Part shown: in pieces, positions 8,558 to 39,569 of the stretch | How positions within the stretch are numbered: position 1 is the first letter of the stretch | Layout of the letters: each line of letters starts with the position of its first letter | NCBI GenBank assembly: GCA_002238765.1 | Contig: MPMZ01000025.1 | Span: forward strand, 1 to 39,760 | Length of the DNA: 39,760 nucleotides | Direction of reading: 5' to 3' | Source: Nitrospira sp. bin75 | GTDB taxonomy: Bacteria; Nitrospirota; Nitrospiria; Nitrospirales; UBA8639 | The notes under the pieces: generated by a model | What the model was told of the DNA's origin: nothing | Database searches by the model: none | What the model saw: only the letters and a program-made list of their open reading frames with translations | Translations under genes and position numbers: made by a program

Positions 8558-11500
8558 TCATTGACTCCCGGAAACACTCTTAAGGATCTTCGGAACTTCC
8601 GACACCTTCTTGGCAATGGCATATTCCCATTGCCCAAACGTTCCATCCGCATTGACCGCGCTTACCCATCGTTCGGCAGCGGCACGCTTGACCTCTTCCA
8701 ATGGATCATAGCCTTTTGTTTCAAGGATCAGGTGGCATGGCGGGTCGGATTTCAGACGAACGATAAAATCAGGGACATAGTCGTGCATTTGCCCGTTGTG
8801 GAGATAAGGGACGGCAAACCCCAGACCGGCGTTTTTCACAAAAGCCTCAACCGACTCGTTCTTATCCAGGAAATAGGCTGCGGACTGTTCCCATTGTTTG
8901 GTATCGGCAACCATGTAATTCAGGTGGCTTTTCACAACTTCCCGGACTTCACGGCTGGTCCAGAAATCCACGTCGGCCGTCGAGCCAACCCCGCGCGTGG
9001 TTTCGTAGCGAGGCACTTCCGGGGCTTCACCTTGCGAAGCATCAGGACGGATAGCCTCCAATAAACGCTCGACAACCAAATTGTAGTACGGCAAGAGAAA
9101 AATGTCCTTTTTGTCCGAGGGCGGTGGAGCCATGACCTTGTTATTGAGGTAGCGGTGAACAATAATGGCTAACTGGGGAAAGAGCTTATGGGCGGGAACG
9201 AAGCATTGATTCTGAGCAACGTAATCCCGCGTTAGCGTTTGGGCAAGGTCAAACACCAATTCCTGAATTCTGCGTTTGGCACGAAACTCCGTGAGTGTGA
9301 CGTCATCAATTCGACCCGGCCCGCTCAGTGAAAGTCTTCCTTGATTGTTGACGTGCAAACCCTTCACCTCAACTTCCGGAGGGATACGGTCCGGGTCCAA
9401 GACTTGAGGAGTAATCTTCTCCCAGTCCACGGTCAAGCGATTGCGAATGGCCTGCGTATACCCTTCAACGCGAGGGAAGGTGATTTCATAACACGATTTC
9501 GCAGGAAGGGCATGAACGTGATAGCGCTTGACCCGTGGTGGAGGTTGGCCCTTCGGAGAAGCTTTGAACGGAATAACCTCGAAAGGAACACCAAATACTG
9601 TGGCCGTTTCCTCAGTCAGCAACCCATCCGGGCCGACTTCGTAATCTGTCCGGCGCAATCCGCGTCCAACGACCTGCTCACACAGGAGTTGAGACATAAA
9701 AGGACGCAGGCCGATGATGTGCGTCACCGTGTTGCAGTCCCAACCTTCGGTCAACATACCCACGCTGACAATACACCGAACGTCACGACCGGGTGGATGA
9801 TCCGGTCTCTCAAGCTTATCTGCCAGTTCTTTGAAACCATCGGGGTAAAGAGGACGGCCCATTTGATCGGTCGGCCACGCGGTCTTCCCCACCGTATCAA
9901 GGGTAAAGCGCATCCAGCGCACTTCGTTACTCTTGGCCTCGCCGGAGTCCGATTCATGCACAACTTTGGAATCCACGCGGATCGTGTTTTGGGGACCGTG
10001 CAATTCCTGTAAGCCCAGCGTATCGACGCCTAAGGTGAAGCTGCCGAGGATGCCGCCGACCGATTGTGTTTTGTTTTTAAATCCCTCAATCTTTACCGGA
10101 GGAATTCCCGTTGGCGCATGATCCTCTGCCAACCATTCATAGAGCACCTTGGCAATCTGCGTGTTTTTGCATACGAGAATAAAAACAGGATGGCGCGTAT
10201 CTTCTTGATTTTGGCTCCATTCCTCTCGTTCTTTTTCCCAGAGCCCCCCGAGCATGGCGATGGGGTGATGGGCATATTTCAGGATAGCTTCCGGCTTTGG
10301 ATTGGCCTTCTTGCCGCCACGCTCGGCAGCGGTCAGTTGCGGTAAGATCCAGTGCCAAATATTGAAGTAACCGGGAATTTCTTTGCCGGTCGTATCCCGA
10401 ACGGCCAGTTGCGGAATCTTCACCAGTCCGGATTCGATGGCATCAATCAGACCAAAGTCGCTGACGACCCAGGGAAACGGCCGATTCGTATCCTGTCCGA
10501 CTTTTCCGAGAAAATAAGGCGTTGCCGAAAGATCCAGACAGAAATTGATTCCCCGAAGTTTCTGGATACGATCCAAGCCTTCTATCCAAACCGTGGCTTC
10601 CTTAAAAAAATCCTCGGCATCCTCTTCCTCGCCGAAAAGGTCCTCCTCATCCTCGTCTTTATTCTCACGCACGATGCGATAGGCGTGATGCGCCTCATCA
10701 TTCATGATGAGGATGTTCTGTTTTCCTCCGACTTCCCGACCCAGAAGACGGTTAAGAAGAGCCGTATCGCTTTCAACGTAGCGTCTCGATTCAACTGTGA
10801 CCTTTTGTAGAATTCCACCTTTGTCGCTTTCTTTATCCAGTACGGAAAGCATGCCAGCGGCGACTTGGCGTTCAAAATCCTTCAAGGTCAGGTAGCGGCG
10901 GCCACGGGCCGTTGTAGTTTGGGAACCGATGGTAATTGTCTCTTTGGTGCGGACCTCGACCCCGGCTTTCGTTACCCTAGCTCCCACGCCACCCGTTTGG
11001 ATGGCCTGCGGCTCGAACACGTGCCAATTTCTCACCAAAACCCGACCCTGCATTAGTTGCGGCATCAAATGTGACGGAACGAGATCGCGGGTGCGATACA
11101 GACTGGCCTCACCTCCATCAGGATCGAGTTCCCGGAGCCGGTTGCGGATCGTTACATTCGGACAGACGACCAACACGACGTCCGAAAATCGTTTATCCTG
11201 ACGGTCGTTAACTTTATTGAGAATGCTCCAGGCTGCAAGCATTCCCATGACGGTGGTCTTCCCGGAGCCTGTTGCCATCTTGCAGGCATAGCGACAGAAT
11301 CCCGTAAAACCCTGAGCCTTTTTCTCATCACTGACTTCCTCCCGAGGAACGTTGATGCCCTGCAAAAAATCATCCCGGGCCTCGGTGAGAAAAATAATCG
11401 TTTCAGCCGCATCGAGTTGGGCAAAGAAGAGTCGCTGGCCTCTTCCCTCACGTTGCCACCATTGCAGCAACTCCTGAGTGGTCCTGGTGACACAGGGATA

Positions 11501-11743
11501 CCCCTCCAACCGCCATTTCTTTACGTGCTCTCGAATGCGGTTGACCAGCTTCAGTTCGATAGCGGTGGCAGCCACAGGCCCATATTCTTTCTCGGGCTTA
11601 GCCTTGGGATCACGATAAAAGTACGTGGCCGGGCGGCGACCCGGTTTTCGCGAAGGTGTTTCACCTTCAACAATATGCCAATGTTCCTTGGGTTCTCCGA
11701 AAGGAGGATTGAGAATAGGCTGAGGAACTTCGTACGCACTCAT
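8558..11743 (-). CDS. res: Type III-like restriction enzyme Res subunit (helicase-nuclease)
   Basis: A 1061-residue SF2 helicase with a C-terminal nuclease. Motif I ATGSGKTT is at 157-164, a DEAH box (MNDEAHHAYR) at 349-352 and motif III LSATPYF near 405. The second RecA domain has LTEGWDCNTVTHIIGLRPF and VVGRGLRR. At the C-terminus PDF (Asp about 992) and ETKG (1008-1011) form a PD-(D/E)xK site. An acidic segment near 362-380 is unusual. In type III enzymes this subunit translocates or switches on ATP and cuts unmodified DNA. Its ATG overlaps the stop of the ATPase gene by 4 nt, and the methyltransferase lies two genes upstream. Confidence 0.9.
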   Translation of the reverse strand: MSAYEVPQPILNPPFGEPKEHWHIVEGETPSRKPGRRPATYFYRDPKAKPEKEYGPVAATAIELKLVNRIREHVKKWRLEGYPCVTRTTQELLQWWQREGRGQRLFFAQLDAAETIIFLTEARDDFLQGINVPREEVSDEKKAQGFTGFCRYACKMATGSGKTTVMGMLAAWSILNKVNDRQDKRFSDVVLVVCPNVTIRNRLRELDPDGGEASLYRTRDLVPSHLMPQLMQGRVLVRNWHVFEPQAIQTGGVGARVTKAGVEVRTKETITIGSQTTTARGRRYLTLKDFERQVAAGMLSVLDKESDKGGILQKVTVESRRYVESDTALLNRLLGREVGGKQNILIMNDEAHHAYRIVRENKDEDEEDLFGEEEDAEDFFKEATVWIEGLDRIQKLRGINFCLDLSATPYFLGKVGQDTNRPFPWVVSDFGLIDAIESGLVKIPQLAVRDTTGKEIPGYFNIWHWILPQLTAAERGGKKANPKPEAILKYAHHPIAMLGGLWEKEREEWSQNQEDTRHPVFILVCKNTQIAKVLYEWLAEDHAPTGIPPVKIEGFKNKTQSVGGILGSFTLGVDTLGLQELHGPQNTIRVDSKVVHESDSGEAKSNEVRWMRFTLDTVGKTAWPTDQMGRPLYPDGFKELADKLERPDHPPGRDVRCIVSVGMLTEGWDCNTVTHIIGLRPFMSQLLCEQVVGRGLRRTDYEVGPDGLLTEETATVFGVPFEVIPFKASPKGQPPPRVKRYHVHALPAKSCYEITFPRVEGYTQAIRNRLTVDWEKITPQVLDPDRIPPEVEVKGLHVNNQGRLSLSGPGRIDDVTLTEFRAKRRIQELVFDLAQTLTRDYVAQNQCFVPAHKLFPQLAIIVHRYLNNKVMAPPPSDKKDIFLLPYYNLVVERLLEAIRPDASQGEAPEVPRYETTRGVGSTADVDFWTSREVREVVKSHLNYMVADTKQWEQSAAYFLDKNESVEAFVKNAGLGFAVPYLHNGQMHDYVPDFIVRLKSDPPCHLILETKGYDPLEEVKRAAAERWVSAVNADGTFGQWEYAIAKKVSEVPKILKSVSGSQ

Positions 11744-13398
11744 AGACGAAAGGCCTGCTGAATGGCGTCAAGTTTTTCTTTGACTTCGGGATGTATTTCT
11801 TCCGGCAGCATCGCGGCAGCGATTTCATTGAAGCGTGTATAGGGAAAGCCATGCAACCCGGCCGCATCGAGAATCGGCGGAATGACTTCTGTCCTGGCTT
11901 TACGTTGTTGGAGATACGCATCGACCAAAGGATAGGGCTTTAGGGGACCTTGAAGAAAGGCAGGGGTAAATGTCTCCTCAAGATAGGCCAACATATCTTT
12001 CCTGGCTTCCGCAGAAAAATCGCCGGCACCTATCTCTTTCTCAATAAACCGCTCCAGTGCTTTCGGGTGGACGAGATAGCTTTCGATTTCGTAGCGATTC
12101 CAGCGAAGACGTTGCAATCCGGTCCCCGTCACGTCCGTACTAGGAATCCTCGAAATGTCATCGCCATCAAGGAGGACCAAACCCGGCAAATCCGCACGGA
12201 TGAGTTTCAGGGCATCATAATGATCTTCAGCCTTGATCCCTGATGCCCCCGGTCTCGGCTCCCAGACGGATGGTTTCCAAAATAATCGCGTCGTCAGTGT
12301 TTCACACGCTGGATGATTCAAAATCTTGGCCCATTCAACGAGGATATTGATATCCGTATACCCATCGACATACAAAATGCCTGGAGCATCATGGGCCAGG
12401 AGAATATCCGTATTGGATAACACCCCAAGGGAAGCAGCAAGTCTCTTTCGATCAACAACAGAGTCCAAAAGTTTTGGTTCATTGAGAAGTACACAGAGTT
12501 CACGAGGCTCGACGGAGTTGATAATCACCTCCGAATGCGTGGAGATAATGAGTTGCGAGTTTTGTTGAGCGGCGACGGAGCGCAACTCTCCATAGATCGC
12601 GTCTTGAAGGATCACGTGCAGATGCGCATCCGGTTCGTCCAATAGGAGGATCGAACCAGGCCTGATGTGTAGAAAGGTTAAAAGCATGAGAACTTGTTGA
12701 AAGCCGCTTCCGGCACTCGCAATGTCAAGCCGTGGTCCGTCGAGATGGTCCTGGTATTCGGCAATGATATCAGCCCCTGTCGCATCGGGAGGTAAAATTT
12801 CATAATGAAAAAGCCGTGCAATTGAATCACGGAGGGAATCCCAAGCTGAACTCTGATGGGCCTCGACCAGCAAATTGCGGATCACGTCGCCTGGTTTTCC
12901 CTGACCCAACAATTGTTCGACTTTCGGTCGTTGATACACGGGTTCGCCGGTACTGAGCCCCGTCATGGGCGGAACAAACGCCGTATTGAGTGCAACCTGC
13001 CTGACCGTATTCGGTTCGACGTCGGGTTTGGGACGCACGTAGACCTGCTCCGTACTATCGGCTATCCATTCCATGGTTAAGCTCCACCCTTTAGAGTGGC
13101 GAACCGCAATCTCTACGGAGCCGGAATATTTGCGATCATTCCAAAGAAGATCGAAGGCACGAAGAGGAACCGCCGTGAAAGCTTGTCTGGCAACAGGCAC
13201 TTTTGCGTAAAACCCTCTATGACGTTGAAAATCGTGTCGCTGCTTCCAGTAGGTGAGCGCCAGATCCCAAGCAGTAATGGCCTGTAACATTGTCGTCTTT
13301 CCACAATTATTCGGGCCGGCGATAACGACGTGTCCGGGAAGTGTGAAGGTTACATCGGCAAAACGCTTGAAGCGCCGAATGGTGACTCGTTCGATCAC
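11740..13398 (-). CDS. OLD-like ATPase with TOPRIM-like domain, between mod and res
   Basis: A 552-residue protein. The ABC-type ATPase half has Walker A GPNNCGKTT at 28-36, a signature-like ASAGSGFQQVLML near 227, Walker B ILLLDEPDAHLH at 250-261 and the H-loop STHSE at 286-290. A TOPRIM-like segment follows with LYVDGYTDINIL near 342 and LLDGDD at 409-414, the arrangement of OLD-family nucleases. The position usually held by the catalytic Glu (VEG) is Asp (VDG). Both ends overlap neighbours by 4 nt (ATGA): mod upstream and res downstream. It is therefore an integral part of the operon. It may act as a sensor, a second nuclease or an assembly factor; the sequence does not say which. Confidence 0.8.
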   Translation of the reverse strand: MIERVTIRRFKRFADVTFTLPGHVVIAGPNNCGKTTMLQAITAWDLALTYWKQRHDFQRHRGFYAKVPVARQAFTAVPLRAFDLLWNDRKYSGSVEIAVRHSKGWSLTMEWIADSTEQVYVRPKPDVEPNTVRQVALNTAFVPPMTGLSTGEPVYQRPKVEQLLGQGKPGDVIRNLLVEAHQSSAWDSLRDSIARLFHYEILPPDATGADIIAEYQDHLDGPRLDIASAGSGFQQVLMLLTFLHIRPGSILLLDEPDAHLHVILQDAIYGELRSVAAQQNSQLIISTHSEVIINSVEPRELCVLLNEPKLLDSVVDRKRLAASLGVLSNTDILLAHDAPGILYVDGYTDINILVEWAKILNHPACETLTTRLFWKPSVWEPRPGASGIKAEDHYDALKLIRADLPGLVLLDGDDISRIPSTDVTGTGLQRLRWNRYEIESYLVHPKALERFIEKEIGAGDFSAEARKDMLAYLEETFTPAFLQGPLKPYPLVDAYLQQRKARTEVIPPILDAAGLHGFPYTRFNEIAAAMLPEEIHPEVKEKLDAIQQAFRL

Positions 13399-16256
13399 CT
13401 CCCAGCCCCATTCAGTTTTTTTACGACCAGCAACTCGTTCCCACGATCGTCTATGACTTTCACGGCAATCTGCTTGTGCTCACCAGCTAGGAATGGCGCA
13501 CTCGTCGCGCCTGCAAGATGATCCCAAACATTTTCTTCATATTCGCCTTTCAAAGCCTTTTTGAGATTGTTCCAGGCGCCGGTGCGTGGGAAGAACGCCT
13601 GCGAAACGTGAAAACACAGGTCGTTATAGTCGATGTCCAGAAACCAAGCTGGTACGTCATTCCCGGAACGGTGGACCACTTCCATGCTGATGGGATCAAA
13701 CACATCCAACCCGAGTAACTCCACTTGATAATAAACTCCCTCTCCCCTTGTGGGAGAGGGCTGGGGTGAGGGGGTTTTGATCTTTCGCACTTCAATTTCC
13801 GGCTGGCCGCAGACGCTGAAGATCTGGCTGGAACGCATATTCTTGAGCAGATCTCCCATCATCAAATCGGGAGTGGCCTGCACGTAGGTAGCGGGCACGC
13901 CCACCACCTCGGTACATTTTTCCACCAACGTTCGAGCATTGGGTTGAATGGCAAAACCGATGACATAGAGATGTGTGTAGCTTTTGACGTGGGCTTCACG
14001 TGCAGCTTCATACACCAGTTTTTCACTGACCGCCCCGTTTTCGGGTCCGAACACCAACGCCACCAGCTTCCCGGATAACGGGAGATGGCGGCCGCTTTTC
14101 TCTTCCGCCTCATCGATCGCTTCTGACAAAGAGGGGCTTTGCCCGTGCGCGGTGGCATCAACAAGGGCTTCAGCGGAAAGGGATAGAGTCTTTGCCGGCG
14201 GGCGGACATTCTTGAAAGTGACAGTCTTGTTGCCCTCCAATCTTAGGATAGGGCTCTTGCGCAACACTTCCAACATCCGATCCACGAAGGAGCCGTAGCC
14301 ATCTCCCTCATCATTGACGGGTGAGGGTGAATCTTCCAAATCCACCGGAGTGGGAATTGTGGCCTCGAAGCAGAATGGACCCGTTACACGGGTGATGCCA
14401 CTTTGTTGCTCCGGGCGGTCCACAAGGACTTCTTCCCGTGGAGACTCATTGTTTGTTATTGAACCAAGCGTAACATGGGGAACAATGCCTCCAACCTCTT
14501 CACCCTTTTTGTTCTGCTTTCGTTTGTAAACGAAGCCTCCGGCTGGGCCACGTTGTTCGTCTTCAAGTTCGTACCAGGGAAAAGTCCCTGTCAACAGACG
14601 TTGCCGAGCTAGTGCCAACGGCACCCGGCTGGTATCAATCGTGATCCAACGCCGGCCCGACTGTTCTGCCACATAGGCGGTCGTGCCACTGCCACATGTG
14701 GGGTCGAGAATAAGATCACCTGGATCAGTGGTCATAAGGAGGCAGCGTTGAATTGCCGTAGCAACTGTCTGAACAACATAGTGTTTTCCTGTGGCACCTA
14801 ATGTGTCAGTCCAAACATTTGCAAGTTCCATGACGGGAAAATCTTCATGGTATAGAACATAGCGTAGAGCCTTAGCTGTCGCATGCAGTCTGTTTGCACT
14901 AATCAAACGATTCATGCCTTCTAGGTTAGTTTTCCAACTTTTCCCCGTCGTTGGAGTATAGACTTTACCCTTGTATTCAAATGGGAACACACACGTTTCA
15001 GTTCTACCAGAAGATGATAGATCAAGACTCGTAAACACTCTCGCGTCCTCCGGCAATGTTTCTGGAGCAGTCTTTTCTTCCGTAGTCATTGAACGACGCT
15101 CGCCAGTAGATAACTCTACCATATTGAACTGTGAATCAATTCCAACATCCTTGGGCACGAAAAGTCTCCGAAATTTTGTCAATGTTATTTCTCGTGAATA
15201 CCAGAGTATGTAGTCGCAAACGCCAGCGATGTAGGTAGTTCCAAGCGGTATCTTGGTTTGAAATGAAATGAGCCCGACAAAGTTTTCTGCTCCAAACACC
15301 TCATCCAGCACTTCCCGGACATGGTGCAGATTTTCGTCGCTGATCTGAACGAAGAGGCTGCCGCTGGGCGTGAGCAGGTCGCGAGCCAACAACAACCGGT
15401 CACGCAAATATGTCAGGTAGGAATGCAGGCCCAGTTCCCATGTGTCCCGATACGCTTGGACCATTTCAGGCTCGCGGGTCATGTCTTCATCATCGTTGTG
15501 GGTGACGTCCCGTTTCTTAACAAACGGCTGGAAGTTGGACCCGAACTTCACGCCGTAGGGCGGGTCCATATAGATCATCTGCACCTGCCCGCCGAGCCCT
15601 TCATAGTGCAACAGCGAGTTCATGACCACGAGCGAATCGCCGAGGACCATCCGGTTCACCCATTGGTCGGGGTATTCATACGCTTTCAACACCTGATCGG
15701 TGATGGAATGCCGGGGATCACCAAACAAGTCATACATGTCCATTTGCTTGTCGGTCTTGTGCCCTACCAGCGTTTCAATGATGGCTTTTGTAGAGAGCCG
15801 CTCGTGAATGAACAGCGGCAAGGTGGGCACGTCAAAAGACAGACGTTCCGCTTTGCCTGCCCAGTTCAGGAAAGGTTTGCTCAGGGCTTTAAGCTCGCGC
15901 AACGTTCCTTCGGCTTGACGAAGGGCCTTGGCAACTTCACCCTTATCTGCGCCCTCACCCTGCCCTCTCCCAGAGGGAGAGGGTAAAGAGGCGGTTCGCA
16001 ATTCTTCTATGTGCCGCTCAAGCTGTGCGATCAGCGCTTCGCCTTGCTCGCGGGCAGGATTCTTGGCATCCCAATCAAGCGCCGGCGACAATGACGAATC
16101 GTACCGGTAGGTTTTCGGTGGTTTCTTCTTCTTGAACTGGGCTTGGGTCCCGACTTCCGGCCGCATGAGGCTCGTCGCCTCCGCGTGCCTGTACGGTTCC
16201 GCCTTTTTAGATTTGGCCTTTACGACTTTCGTCTTTCTACTCTTTGGTACAGCCAT
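13395..16256 (-). CDS. mod: Type III-like DNA (adenine-N6) methyltransferase Mod with repeat insertions
   Basis: A 953-residue beta-class amino-methyltransferase. The catalytic DPPY (MIYMDPPYG) is near residue 232 and the SAM-binding LDPTCGSGTT near 517, the motif IV-before-I order of type III Mod subunits. The region between them should hold the target-recognition domain and is lower in GC than the flanks. About 350 residues follow motif I, longer than a typical Mod, and contain LYVIGFAIQPNARTL and VPATYVQATPDLM of unknown role. The basic N-terminus is followed by a 13-residue repeat-derived insert near 93-105, and another is near 830. It is the first gene of the operon and overlaps the ATPase gene by 4 nt. 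Confidence 0.88.
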   Translation of the reverse strand: MAVPKSRKTKVVKAKSKKAEPYRHAEATSLMRPEVGTQAQFKKKKPPKTYRYDSSLSPALDWDAKNPAREQGEALIAQLERHIEELRTASLPSPSGRGQGEGADKGEVAKALRQAEGTLRELKALSKPFLNWAGKAERLSFDVPTLPLFIHERLSTKAIIETLVGHKTDKQMDMYDLFGDPRHSITDQVLKAYEYPDQWVNRMVLGDSLVVMNSLLHYEGLGGQVQMIYMDPPYGVKFGSNFQPFVKKRDVTHNDDEDMTREPEMVQAYRDTWELGLHSYLTYLRDRLLLARDLLTPSGSLFVQISDENLHHVREVLDEVFGAENFVGLISFQTKIPLGTTYIAGVCDYILWYSREITLTKFRRLFVPKDVGIDSQFNMVELSTGERRSMTTEEKTAPETLPEDARVFTSLDLSSSGRTETCVFPFEYKGKVYTPTTGKSWKTNLEGMNRLISANRLHATAKALRYVLYHEDFPVMELANVWTDTLGATGKHYVVQTVATAIQRCLLMTTDPGDLILDPTCGSGTTAYVAEQSGRRWITIDTSRVPLALARQRLLTGTFPWYELEDEQRGPAGGFVYKRKQNKKGEEVGGIVPHVTLGSITNNESPREEVLVDRPEQQSGITRVTGPFCFEATIPTPVDLEDSPSPVNDEGDGYGSFVDRMLEVLRKSPILRLEGNKTVTFKNVRPPAKTLSLSAEALVDATAHGQSPSLSEAIDEAEEKSGRHLPLSGKLVALVFGPENGAVSEKLVYEAAREAHVKSYTHLYVIGFAIQPNARTLVEKCTEVVGVPATYVQATPDLMMGDLLKNMRSSQIFSVCGQPEIEVRKIKTPSPQPSPTRGEGVYYQVELLGLDVFDPISMEVVHRSGNDVPAWFLDIDYNDLCFHVSQAFFPRTGAWNNLKKALKGEYEENVWDHLAGATSAPFLAGEHKQIAVKVIDDRGNELLVVKKLNGAGR
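13738..13772. repeat. Dispersed palindromic repeat inside mod (C-terminal copy)
   Basis: CCCTCTCCC and GGGAGAGGG form a 9-bp stem, followed by CTGGGGTGAGGG. On the coding strand it reads in frame as TPSPQPSPTRGEG, a low-complexity peptide with no counterpart in the methyltransferase fold. This is the same element type as at 15952-15983 but in the opposite orientation. Confidence 0.75.
15952..15983. repeat. Dispersed palindromic repeat inside mod (N-terminal copy)
   Basis: CCCTCACCCTG is followed by CCCTCTCCC and GGGAGAGGG, a stem-loop of the same type as 13738-13772 but inverted. It is translated in frame as LPSPSGRGQGEG within the N-terminal region of Mod. Both copies keep the reading frame open. 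Confidence 0.75.
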
Positions 16257-26381: not shown

Positions 26382-26457
26382 TGGCGCGCCCGAGAGGAGT
26401 CGAACCTCTAACCTTTTGATCCGTAGTCAAATGCTCTATCCATTGAGCTACGGGCGC
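26382..26457 (-). tRNA. tRNA-Arg (anticodon ACG)
   Basis: A 76-nt cloverleaf. Acceptor arms GCGCCCG and CGGGCGC pair, the D-arm is AGCTCAATGGATAGAGC, the anticodon stem TTTGA/TCAAA encloses loop CTACGGA with anticodon ACG, and the T-arm has GGTTCGACTCC. The CCA end is encoded (26384-26382). It reads CGU/CGC after inosine modification. Confidence 0.95.
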
Positions 26458-37924: not shown

Positions 37925-38002
37925 TGGCGTCCCCAACGGGATTTGAACCCGTGTTGCCGGCTTGAAAGGCCGGCGTCCTAGGCCAGGCTAGACGATGGGG
38001 AC
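37925..38002 (-). tRNA. tRNA-Glu (anticodon TTC)
   Basis: A 78-nt cloverleaf with encoded CCA (37927-37925). Acceptor GTCCCCA/TGGGGAC, anticodon stem CCGGC/GCCGG around loop CTTTCAA, anticodon TTC, and T-arm GGTTCAAATCC. It reads GAA/GAG. Confidence 0.95.
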
Positions 38003-38120: not shown

Positions 38121-38573
38121 GGTATGGGGTGGGTCGATAAGCCGGATTCTGTTCCGTATCGATTCTGCATACGGCGGTGACCATGTCTCTACGGCTTCTG
38201 TTACCACAAGCCTCCAGCGACCTACCCGAGAACCTCGGCCGGGCCGGCCTCTCCCGAACGTCATCGACTCCTCTCCGCAAACGGCTGTCGCCGTGCGAAG
38301 CCGATCGGGCCGTTCGGAGCGTCCTCCTATTTGGTCTTGCTCCGGGTGATGCTTACCCTGCCGTCCACGTTGCCGCGGACGCGGTGGGCTCTTACCCCGC
38401 CGTTTCACCCTTACCCCGGCACCATCCGAAGATCGTCCCGGGGCGGTTTGTTTTCTGTGGCGCTCATGTCGGATTGCTCCGCCTGGGCGTTACCCAGCAC
38501 CCTGCCCTGTGGAGTCCGGACTTTCCTCCCACCTGCGACCAGGTGAGCGGCCACCTGACCCACGCCTCATACC
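38121..38573 (-). ncRNA. rnpB: RNase P RNA (bacterial type A)
   Basis: The catalytic RNA of RNase P, which trims tRNA 5' ends. The 5' half has GAGGAAAGTCCGGACTCC and CACAGGGCAG, and the 3' end ACAGAATCCGGCTTATCGACC, both hallmarks of bacterial RNase P RNA. The 5' GGTATG...GTGGGTC pairs with 3' GACCCAC...CATACC to form helix P1, which sets the limits at 38573 and 38121. TTTTT follows P1 directly, so P1 may double as terminator. The length is about 453 nt. Confidence 0.95.
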
Positions 38574-39492: not shown

Positions 39493-39569
39493 TGGTGGGC
39501 CCACCAGGACTTGAACCTGGGACCAACTGATTATGAGTCAGCCGCTCTGACCAACTGAGCTATGGGCCC
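39493..39569 (-). tRNA. tRNA with anticodon CAT (Ile2 or elongator Met)
   Basis: A 77-nt cloverleaf with encoded CCA (39495-39493). Acceptor GGGCCCA/TGGGCCC, D-arm AGCTCAGTTGGTCAGAGC, anticodon loop CTCATAA, T-arm GGTTCAAGTCC. The GGGCCCA acceptor resembles tRNA-Ile species more than elongator Met, so a lysidine-modified Ile2 is plausible; anticodon alone cannot decide. Confidence 0.9.

Follow-up and report, generated by a model that had tools for sequence, protein, structure and literature searches.

In-frame BoxC/TM repeats in a type III methyltransferase gene of Nitrospira and DUF559 as their candidate partner

The DNA analysed here (the window; 39,760 nucleotides, contig MPMZ01000025.1 of Nitrospira sp. 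bin75, C32 in our numbering) carries an intact mod gene for a type III DNA methyltransferase in which copies of a short palindromic repeat are read in frame. Its sequence identifies it as the BoxC/PIT/TM triplex motif known from E. coli (hereafter TM). Knowledge of BoxC/PIT/TM repeats dates from the 1990s; their location in genes such as mod is little known, and their link to the DUF559 family is the new part of this work. Comparison between genomes shows that the repeats were inserted in mod, that they recur at four loops of Mod, that TMs bracket DUF559 genes and that one intergenic site occurs in empty, solo and full forms. Solo TMs are probably a non-autonomous form of a DUF559 element which is retained in coding DNA where loops tolerate it. 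We give an even chance to a wider proposal in which DUF559/YcjD is the mobilising nuclease of BoxC/TM and TM-DUF559-TM is the autonomous element of a new class resembling repetitive extragenic palindromic (REP) sequences. Solo TMs and doublets would then derive from it in hundreds of bacterial genomes, E. coli K-12 among them; other GC-rich palindromes (in cyanobacteria, Sphingomonas and Deinococcus) would be served by related DUF559 lineages, and the elements would invade restriction-modification (R-M) genes in frame, with even a whole endonuclease domain placed in HsdM.

The original prediction described two stretches of mod as one repeat in opposite orientations, each read without breaking the frame, and the translation agrees with this. 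The copy at site B encodes PSPQPSPTRGEG (Mod residues 829-840), the copy at site A encodes LPSPSGRGQGEG (residues 91-102) and the open reading frame (ORF) runs through both without a stop (Table 1). The weak third match that had been suspected, here site T, is also real, for in the nearest homologue (L057/L106) this copy is complete and reads SPSPLPSPTGRGE where the window reads SPSPVNDEGDG. A search of the window with CCCTCACCCCNNCCCTCTCCC, allowing up to 3 mismatches, returned site B (0 mismatches) and an unrelated stretch at 2195-2215 (3 mismatches), compared with a mean of 0.00 matches over 100 shuffles; the copy at site A is shorter by one base and is missed by this string. The genome of the window (G000; 3,038,306 bases or 3.04 Mb, 115 contigs, 97.8% complete, with Nitrospirota metagenome-assembled genomes (MAGs) as its nearest named relatives) was found to contain 74 copies of the pattern CCCTCACCCN{2,4}CCCTCTCCC and none of its backward control, and the repeat is thus a dispersed family. 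A profile built from 71 of the G000 copies has the consensus CCCCCTCACCCCAGCCCTCTCCCACCAGGGGAGAGGGAGTTAGG.

The same three blocks, CCCTCTCCC-loop-GGGAGAGGG-loop-GGGTGAGGG, are listed for E. coli MG1655 in Table 1 of Holder et al. (2015; PMC4666352), and the two repeats also agree in their length, their two short loops and their occurrence in many copies in many genomes. Passages of that paper on E. coli describe the motif in MG1655 as always intergenic and without transposase or integrase remnants beside it, and report that the E. coli sequence forms an intrastrand triplex in vitro. In location the window copies depart from this as they are intragenic, as are 7 of the 74 copies in G000. Membership by sequence stands nevertheless, because the intergenic location was reported for one strain and is no property of the sequence.

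The mod gene was aligned at the DNA level with L057 (G012, same genus), L058 (G051), L059 (G046), L060 (G055) and L061 (G007), and the two peptides were observed to be gaps in relatives, as had been expected of them. At site B, a 36-bp block is filled in the window, L057 and L058 and is empty in L059 and L060. Site A is occupied only in the window and L057 and is absent from L058-L061, while site T is full in L057, decayed in the window and repeat-free in L058-L060. On this alignment the peptides in Mod are insertions. A scan with the TM profile was extended to 80 named Mod loci, the best 80 of 164, covering 223 kb of mod and 520 kb of flanks. Nineteen copies were found inside mod, in 13 of the 80 loci, and one outside it (L167, E 0.0099), which corresponds to a binomial probability of 1.7e-9 with kinship ignored. 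All nineteen are located at four positions, near window residues 90-104 (A), 641-655 (T), 702-730 (C) and 828-842 (B), and their holders include Nitrospirota, Beta-, Gamma- and 'Deltaproteobacteria' and Jettenia. In an AlphaFold2 model of Mod that serves only as a guide (mean predicted local distance difference test, pLDDT, 62; predicted template modelling score, pTM, 0.43), helices 67-90 and 103-136 enclose site A, strands 820-826 and 842-854 enclose site B, and sites T and C fall in loops of low confidence near 590-655 and 704-727. By this model all four sites would be in coil between secondary-structure elements. By eye, low-complexity inserts that resemble peptides from other repeat families were seen in the TM loops of L133 (site C), L165 (site B) and L136 (site B), namely ADARGSDSRGSD, RGTGFQPV and RAVPGAPSG.

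Eighteen copies in G000 are crossed by some long ORF and seven of these were accepted as genic from sequence, Pfam or PADLOC: two in mod, two in HsdM and one each in HsdR, a second type III methylase (MTase_III) and MnmE. The other eleven were taken by eye to be antisense, spurious or upstream of the likely start, with a domain scan for one of them (L205). Among 79 TM copies in 34 genomes with 1-5 copies each, seven lie in Mod, a count that is biased because some genomes were picked for having mod. Mod aside, seven of the 79 are in R-M-type methylases (three of them in L229) and six in other Pfam-supported genes; seven further loci were counted in neither class as to their intragenic status. 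Outside R-M genes, copies were observed in MnmE, DprA, a metal ATPase, an Lhr-like helicase and a tRNA synthetase. There is a precedent for repeats read in frame in DNA-metabolism genes: according to PMC3733652, GTAG/CGTC REPs occur within genes for DNA repair and within tRNA-related ones; its passages on these make no mention of TMs in R-M genes.

The HsdM of G000 (L009) has a block of ~200 residues that consists of TM, TM, DUF559 and a TM-like sequence. A related HsdM in L228 is without the DUF559 block, as its tblastn match covers query residues 9-135 and 338-412 with 18 residues between them. A DUF559 domain in frame with adjoining TM peptides was noticed in three DNA-methylase ORFs, two HsdM and one PglX/IIG-like (L009:1079-2335, L229:3-2960 and L276:1-2541 (-)). 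In genome counts with the same pattern, G060 (L107; the same record as G051) and G065 (Jettenia) each have a single TM, which in both is inside mod. G064 and G066 each have a TM in mod and a second one in another DNA methylase, two in all, and the remaining holders of a TM in mod have 2 to 153 copies per genome. A TM in the mod of an otherwise TM-free genome would fit a gene that came from a TM-rich host.

Loci with DUF559 were collected from genomes because the HsdM of G000 has this domain between TMs and G000 is without a match to the Y1_Tnp transposase. The sample (PF04480; 59 relatives and 49 further genomes, best 30 loci per search) comprised 60 loci. A TM was found within 150 bp of DUF559 on the left in 23 loci, on the right in 22 and on both sides in 18, compared with 2 of 111 control windows placed 700-870 bp from DUF559, and the gene is thus bracketed as the partner in a REP-like system would be. 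TTA-like loops predominate in left TM ends and CTG/TTG-like loops in right ones, and in most full units the two TMs are unlike in loop type. These loop types recall types A and B of PMC4666352, where five close pairs are given for E. coli, every one of the A+B type. Across 31 genomes, TM number correlated with DUF559 (rho +0.79) and gave rho -0.15 with Y1_Tnp; across 59 genomes, TM and DUF559 counts gave rho 0.54. The p-values attached to such tests are only indicative because the families are related by descent. No earlier link between DUF559 and the repeat was found in the accessible passages of the open-licence literature, including under the repeat strings GGGAGAGGG and CCCTCACCC.

Between three groups of units (L289/L290, L294 and L317/L318), only a core of 427-457 bp is shared, with 81-89% identity, and flanks are common only within L289/L290 and within L317/L318. 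The core identity stops at the outer TM edges. As an example, L289 matches L318 over 1455-1882, with TMs at 1452-1490 and 1842-1882. The orthologous intergenic site of L294 was compared in 12 loci with types assigned by eye. It holds the full unit in G005 and is empty in G003 and G009; a solo right TM is present in G011, G013 and G008 (in G008 with another repeat), and G006 has a solo left one. G000, G010 and G012 show decayed or hybrid pieces, and G001 and G004 have unrelated repeats. Palindromic repeats of other kinds (GTAGGGGCGGACC..., TTCCCCTCCTTTGTAAGGAGGGG) fill the slot in other species (L366, L370-L373).

E. coli YcjD is a DUF559 protein (score 1.4e-49) and its gene was matched in 3365 of 5426 genomes. 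The PF04480 search gave no match in the E. coli of the control panel. The 3' end of ycjD overlaps a TM. Strain 118UI has this TM in full and the K-12-type sequence has a truncated form of it, and the C-terminus of YcjD is TM-encoded as SPSPQPSP or SPSP. In addition, a TM at MG1655 1351204-1351239, 167 bases past the end of ycjD, is the repeat listed as TM_ECO no. 9 in PMC4666352 by both sequence and position. YcjD is treated in PMC1189080 as a PD-(D/E)XK protein whose profile finds Vsr, and the solved structure nearest to YcjD/DUF559 by sequence is 3hrl. The sapF-fabI interval (L379, L381) contains ycjD and TMs in K-12-type strains. IAI39 was rejected as a clean empty ycjD site because other genes adjoin its sapF and because PMC12817139, in its account of this place, puts the eef operon there and reads the difference as loss of that operon. 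Among 16 DUF559 loci from 43 matching records of a plasmid collection, six have a TM of at least 13 bits within 150 bp (Azospirillum lipoferum, two E. coli, Sinorhizobium meliloti and two Klebsiella), three others (Pseudanabaena, Sphingomonas and Deinococcus) have a different sequence that recurs exactly in inverted orientation over 22-40 bases, and the remaining seven have neither.

Several observations weigh against DUF559 as the partner of the repeat. The orientation of TMs at DUF559 is not uniform, with 18 minus and 8 plus on the left and 17 plus and 10 minus on the right. In 33 of the 60 loci no TM lies within 150 bp on either side, and 22 of these 33 are among the 46 loci with a near-full DUF559 domain. 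Five of the 19 genomes with at least 10 TMs gave no DUF559 match (G003, G007, G022, G026 and G052). Outside the genus of the window (45 genomes), the correlation between TM and DUF559 was rho 0.17 (p 0.26). No clear target-site duplication was observed at the L294 site, the sole site compared. Furthermore, DUF559 was found in none of 94 Mod-type loci scanned (some genes fetched twice), and the Mod copies are therefore tied to the DUF559 element by the repeat alone. The candidate of a DUF559 inserted within Mod itself was rejected on the same count.

The roles of repeat and gene could be reversed, with TMs and doublets spread otherwise and DUF559 a traveller that inserts between or homes into TM pairs. 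Solo TMs far outnumber DUF559 copies, TM-rich genomes without a DUF559 match exist, and cyanobacterial, Sphingomonas and Deinococcus DUF559 lie between other GC-rich palindromes, all of which would suit such a target. We consider it unlikely, given that the L294 site is empty in two species and its sole full copy has both TMs, that core identity reaches as far as the outer TM edges, and that the two TMs of most full units differ in loop type. An enzyme acting in trans, the REP-associated tyrosine transposase (RAYT; Y1_Tnp), would spread TMs as it does classical REPs, and the short palindromes, inverted pairs and intragenic copies do match what PMC3733652 describes for GTAG/CGTC REPs. This mover was rejected and we give it hardly any credence: G000 and 8 of 13 congeners gave no match to Y1_Tnp, none of 20 Y1_Tnp loci has a TM within 150 bp, the correlation with TM number over 31 genomes is not positive, and the consensus is without a GTAG or CGTC tag.

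For mod itself, the original prediction was that repeat mobility had added the peptides, and it named the same peptides in distant genomes as the finding that would speak against this. The insertions are borne out, and TMs do occur at the same four sites in distant carriers (Betaproteobacteria, 'Deltaproteobacteria', a Methylococcaceae MAG and Jettenia). Peptides ancestral in mod and lost many times would explain the four positions shared by distant phyla, as well as the single frame of all site B occupants, with repeat mobility unneeded. Such an origin is very unlikely in our view, as frame or orientation at sites T and C varies among lineages (one T copy of L172 and the T copy of L148 are reversed), the TM label on the 80-row Mod tree needs at least 10 changes, six of them forced by well-supported (starred) branches, and the Mod copies still score highly with the profile of dispersed G000 copies. 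Counting the window, both blocks can be read in 15 C-first copies, some of them related by descent; nine are read as PSPxPSP, six as PHPxPLP and none as LTPALS, a frame that is equally open. Because frames and orientations vary at one site, relatives are empty and the tree needs so many changes, repeated insertion at tolerant loops together with horizontal transfer is the better reading of the TM pattern in Mod; at site B, common ancestry of the occupants may apply because they share one frame. Selection could also have kept TMs in R-M genes, as aids to recombination that swaps or switches methylase specificity or as useful linkers. R-M genes are frequent among intragenic copies, and the two intact copies of the window are inverted and flank the catalytic region. 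We find this most improbable, since MnmE, DprA and the other non-R-M genes listed above also carry copies, so that tolerance may suffice, and our alignments showed no inverted allele.

If the reading of solo TMs as non-autonomous forms of a DUF559 element is right, the DUF559 protein (PD-(D/E)XK fold, nearest Vsr) would recognise the folded TM ends and cut there, and catalysis in TM movement would lie with it. The unit and its internally deleted derivatives, the solo TMs and doublets, would spread in the way that REPs and REP doublets forming hairpins (REPIN) do with RAYT. Insertions in genes would survive only if the frame is kept, the peptide is a hydrophilic Pro/Gly one and the position is in a loop. 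R-M genes would often retain TMs because they are dispensable, modular and mobile between genomes, and a TM in such a gene would also mark its passage through TM-rich hosts. The DUF559 link is a testable answer to how BoxC/TM repeats spread, and because the bracketed partner is present in E. coli K-12 as ycjD, the question can be put to a laboratory strain. If the link is true, the large orphan family DUF559 gains a candidate function. R-M enzymes across phyla bear repeat-encoded peptides and may record passage through repeat-rich genomes.

The remaining features of the R-M locus are collected in Table 1. Mod has the motifs DPPY at residues 231-234 and DPTCGSG at residues 518-524 and matches N6_N4_Mtase (1.8e-24) and PADLOC MTase_III (8.7e-148). 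As for a type III Mod, the locus has an N6/N4 methylase that contains DPPY and motif I and shares an operon with a Res-like gene; this Res-like gene is matched weakly (1.2e-7), with an ATPase gene located between it and mod. The ATPase (552 aa) has AriA/NsnB-like matches and the Res-like protein (1061 aa) is matched weakly by ResIII. The locus (8558-13398 and mod) is possibly a type III variant having an additional subunit. The TM profile scan found no copy in the ATPase or ResIII-like gene. Rfam over the whole window gave nothing beyond RNase P RNA at 38122-38566 (-) and tRNA genes at 26385-26457, 37928-38002 and 39496-39569 (-).

Table 1. TM copies and genes of the R-M locus in the window
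Feature	Position	Strand	Remarks
TM/BoxC copy, site B	13738..13772	-	within CTCCCTCTCCCCTTGTGGGAGAGGGCTGGGGTGAGGGGG; C-rich half first in the direction of mod
TM/BoxC copy, site A	15952..15983	+	within CCCTCACCCTGCCCTCTCCCAGAGGGAGAGGG; orientation opposite to site B
Decayed TM copy, site T	14305..14331	-	residues about 641-650; full copy in L057/L106
mod, type III DNA methyltransferase, intact	13395..16256	-	953 aa, no stop
AAA-family ATPase gene	11740..13398	-	4-base overlap with mod
ResIII-like helicase/restriction gene, weak type III restriction endonuclease match	8558..11743	-	

Rickettsia palindromic elements (RPE) are palindromic repeats that are read in frame inside proteins. They are mentioned in PMC3733652, resemble TMs in this in-frame position, differ in host group and are likened here by description only. 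YcjD/DUF559 belongs to the PD-(D/E)XK superfamily as a Vsr-like protein (PMC1189080; PDB 3hrl by sequence) and the partner gene of TM is of this family, for which the passages of PMC1189080 on it give no role in repeat mobility. Unlike the BoxC/PIT/TM repeats as reported for MG1655 in the passages of PMC4666352, the window copies are in frame in genes and TMs bracket DUF559, including beside ycjD. REP/REPIN systems with RAYT, as described in PMC3733652, are like TMs in their short palindromes, inverted pairs, repeat-bracketed partner gene and in-frame copies in DNA-metabolism genes. The partner in those systems is a Y1 transposase, whereas that of TM is from a PD-(D/E)XK nuclease family and the TM is without the GTAG/CGTC tag.

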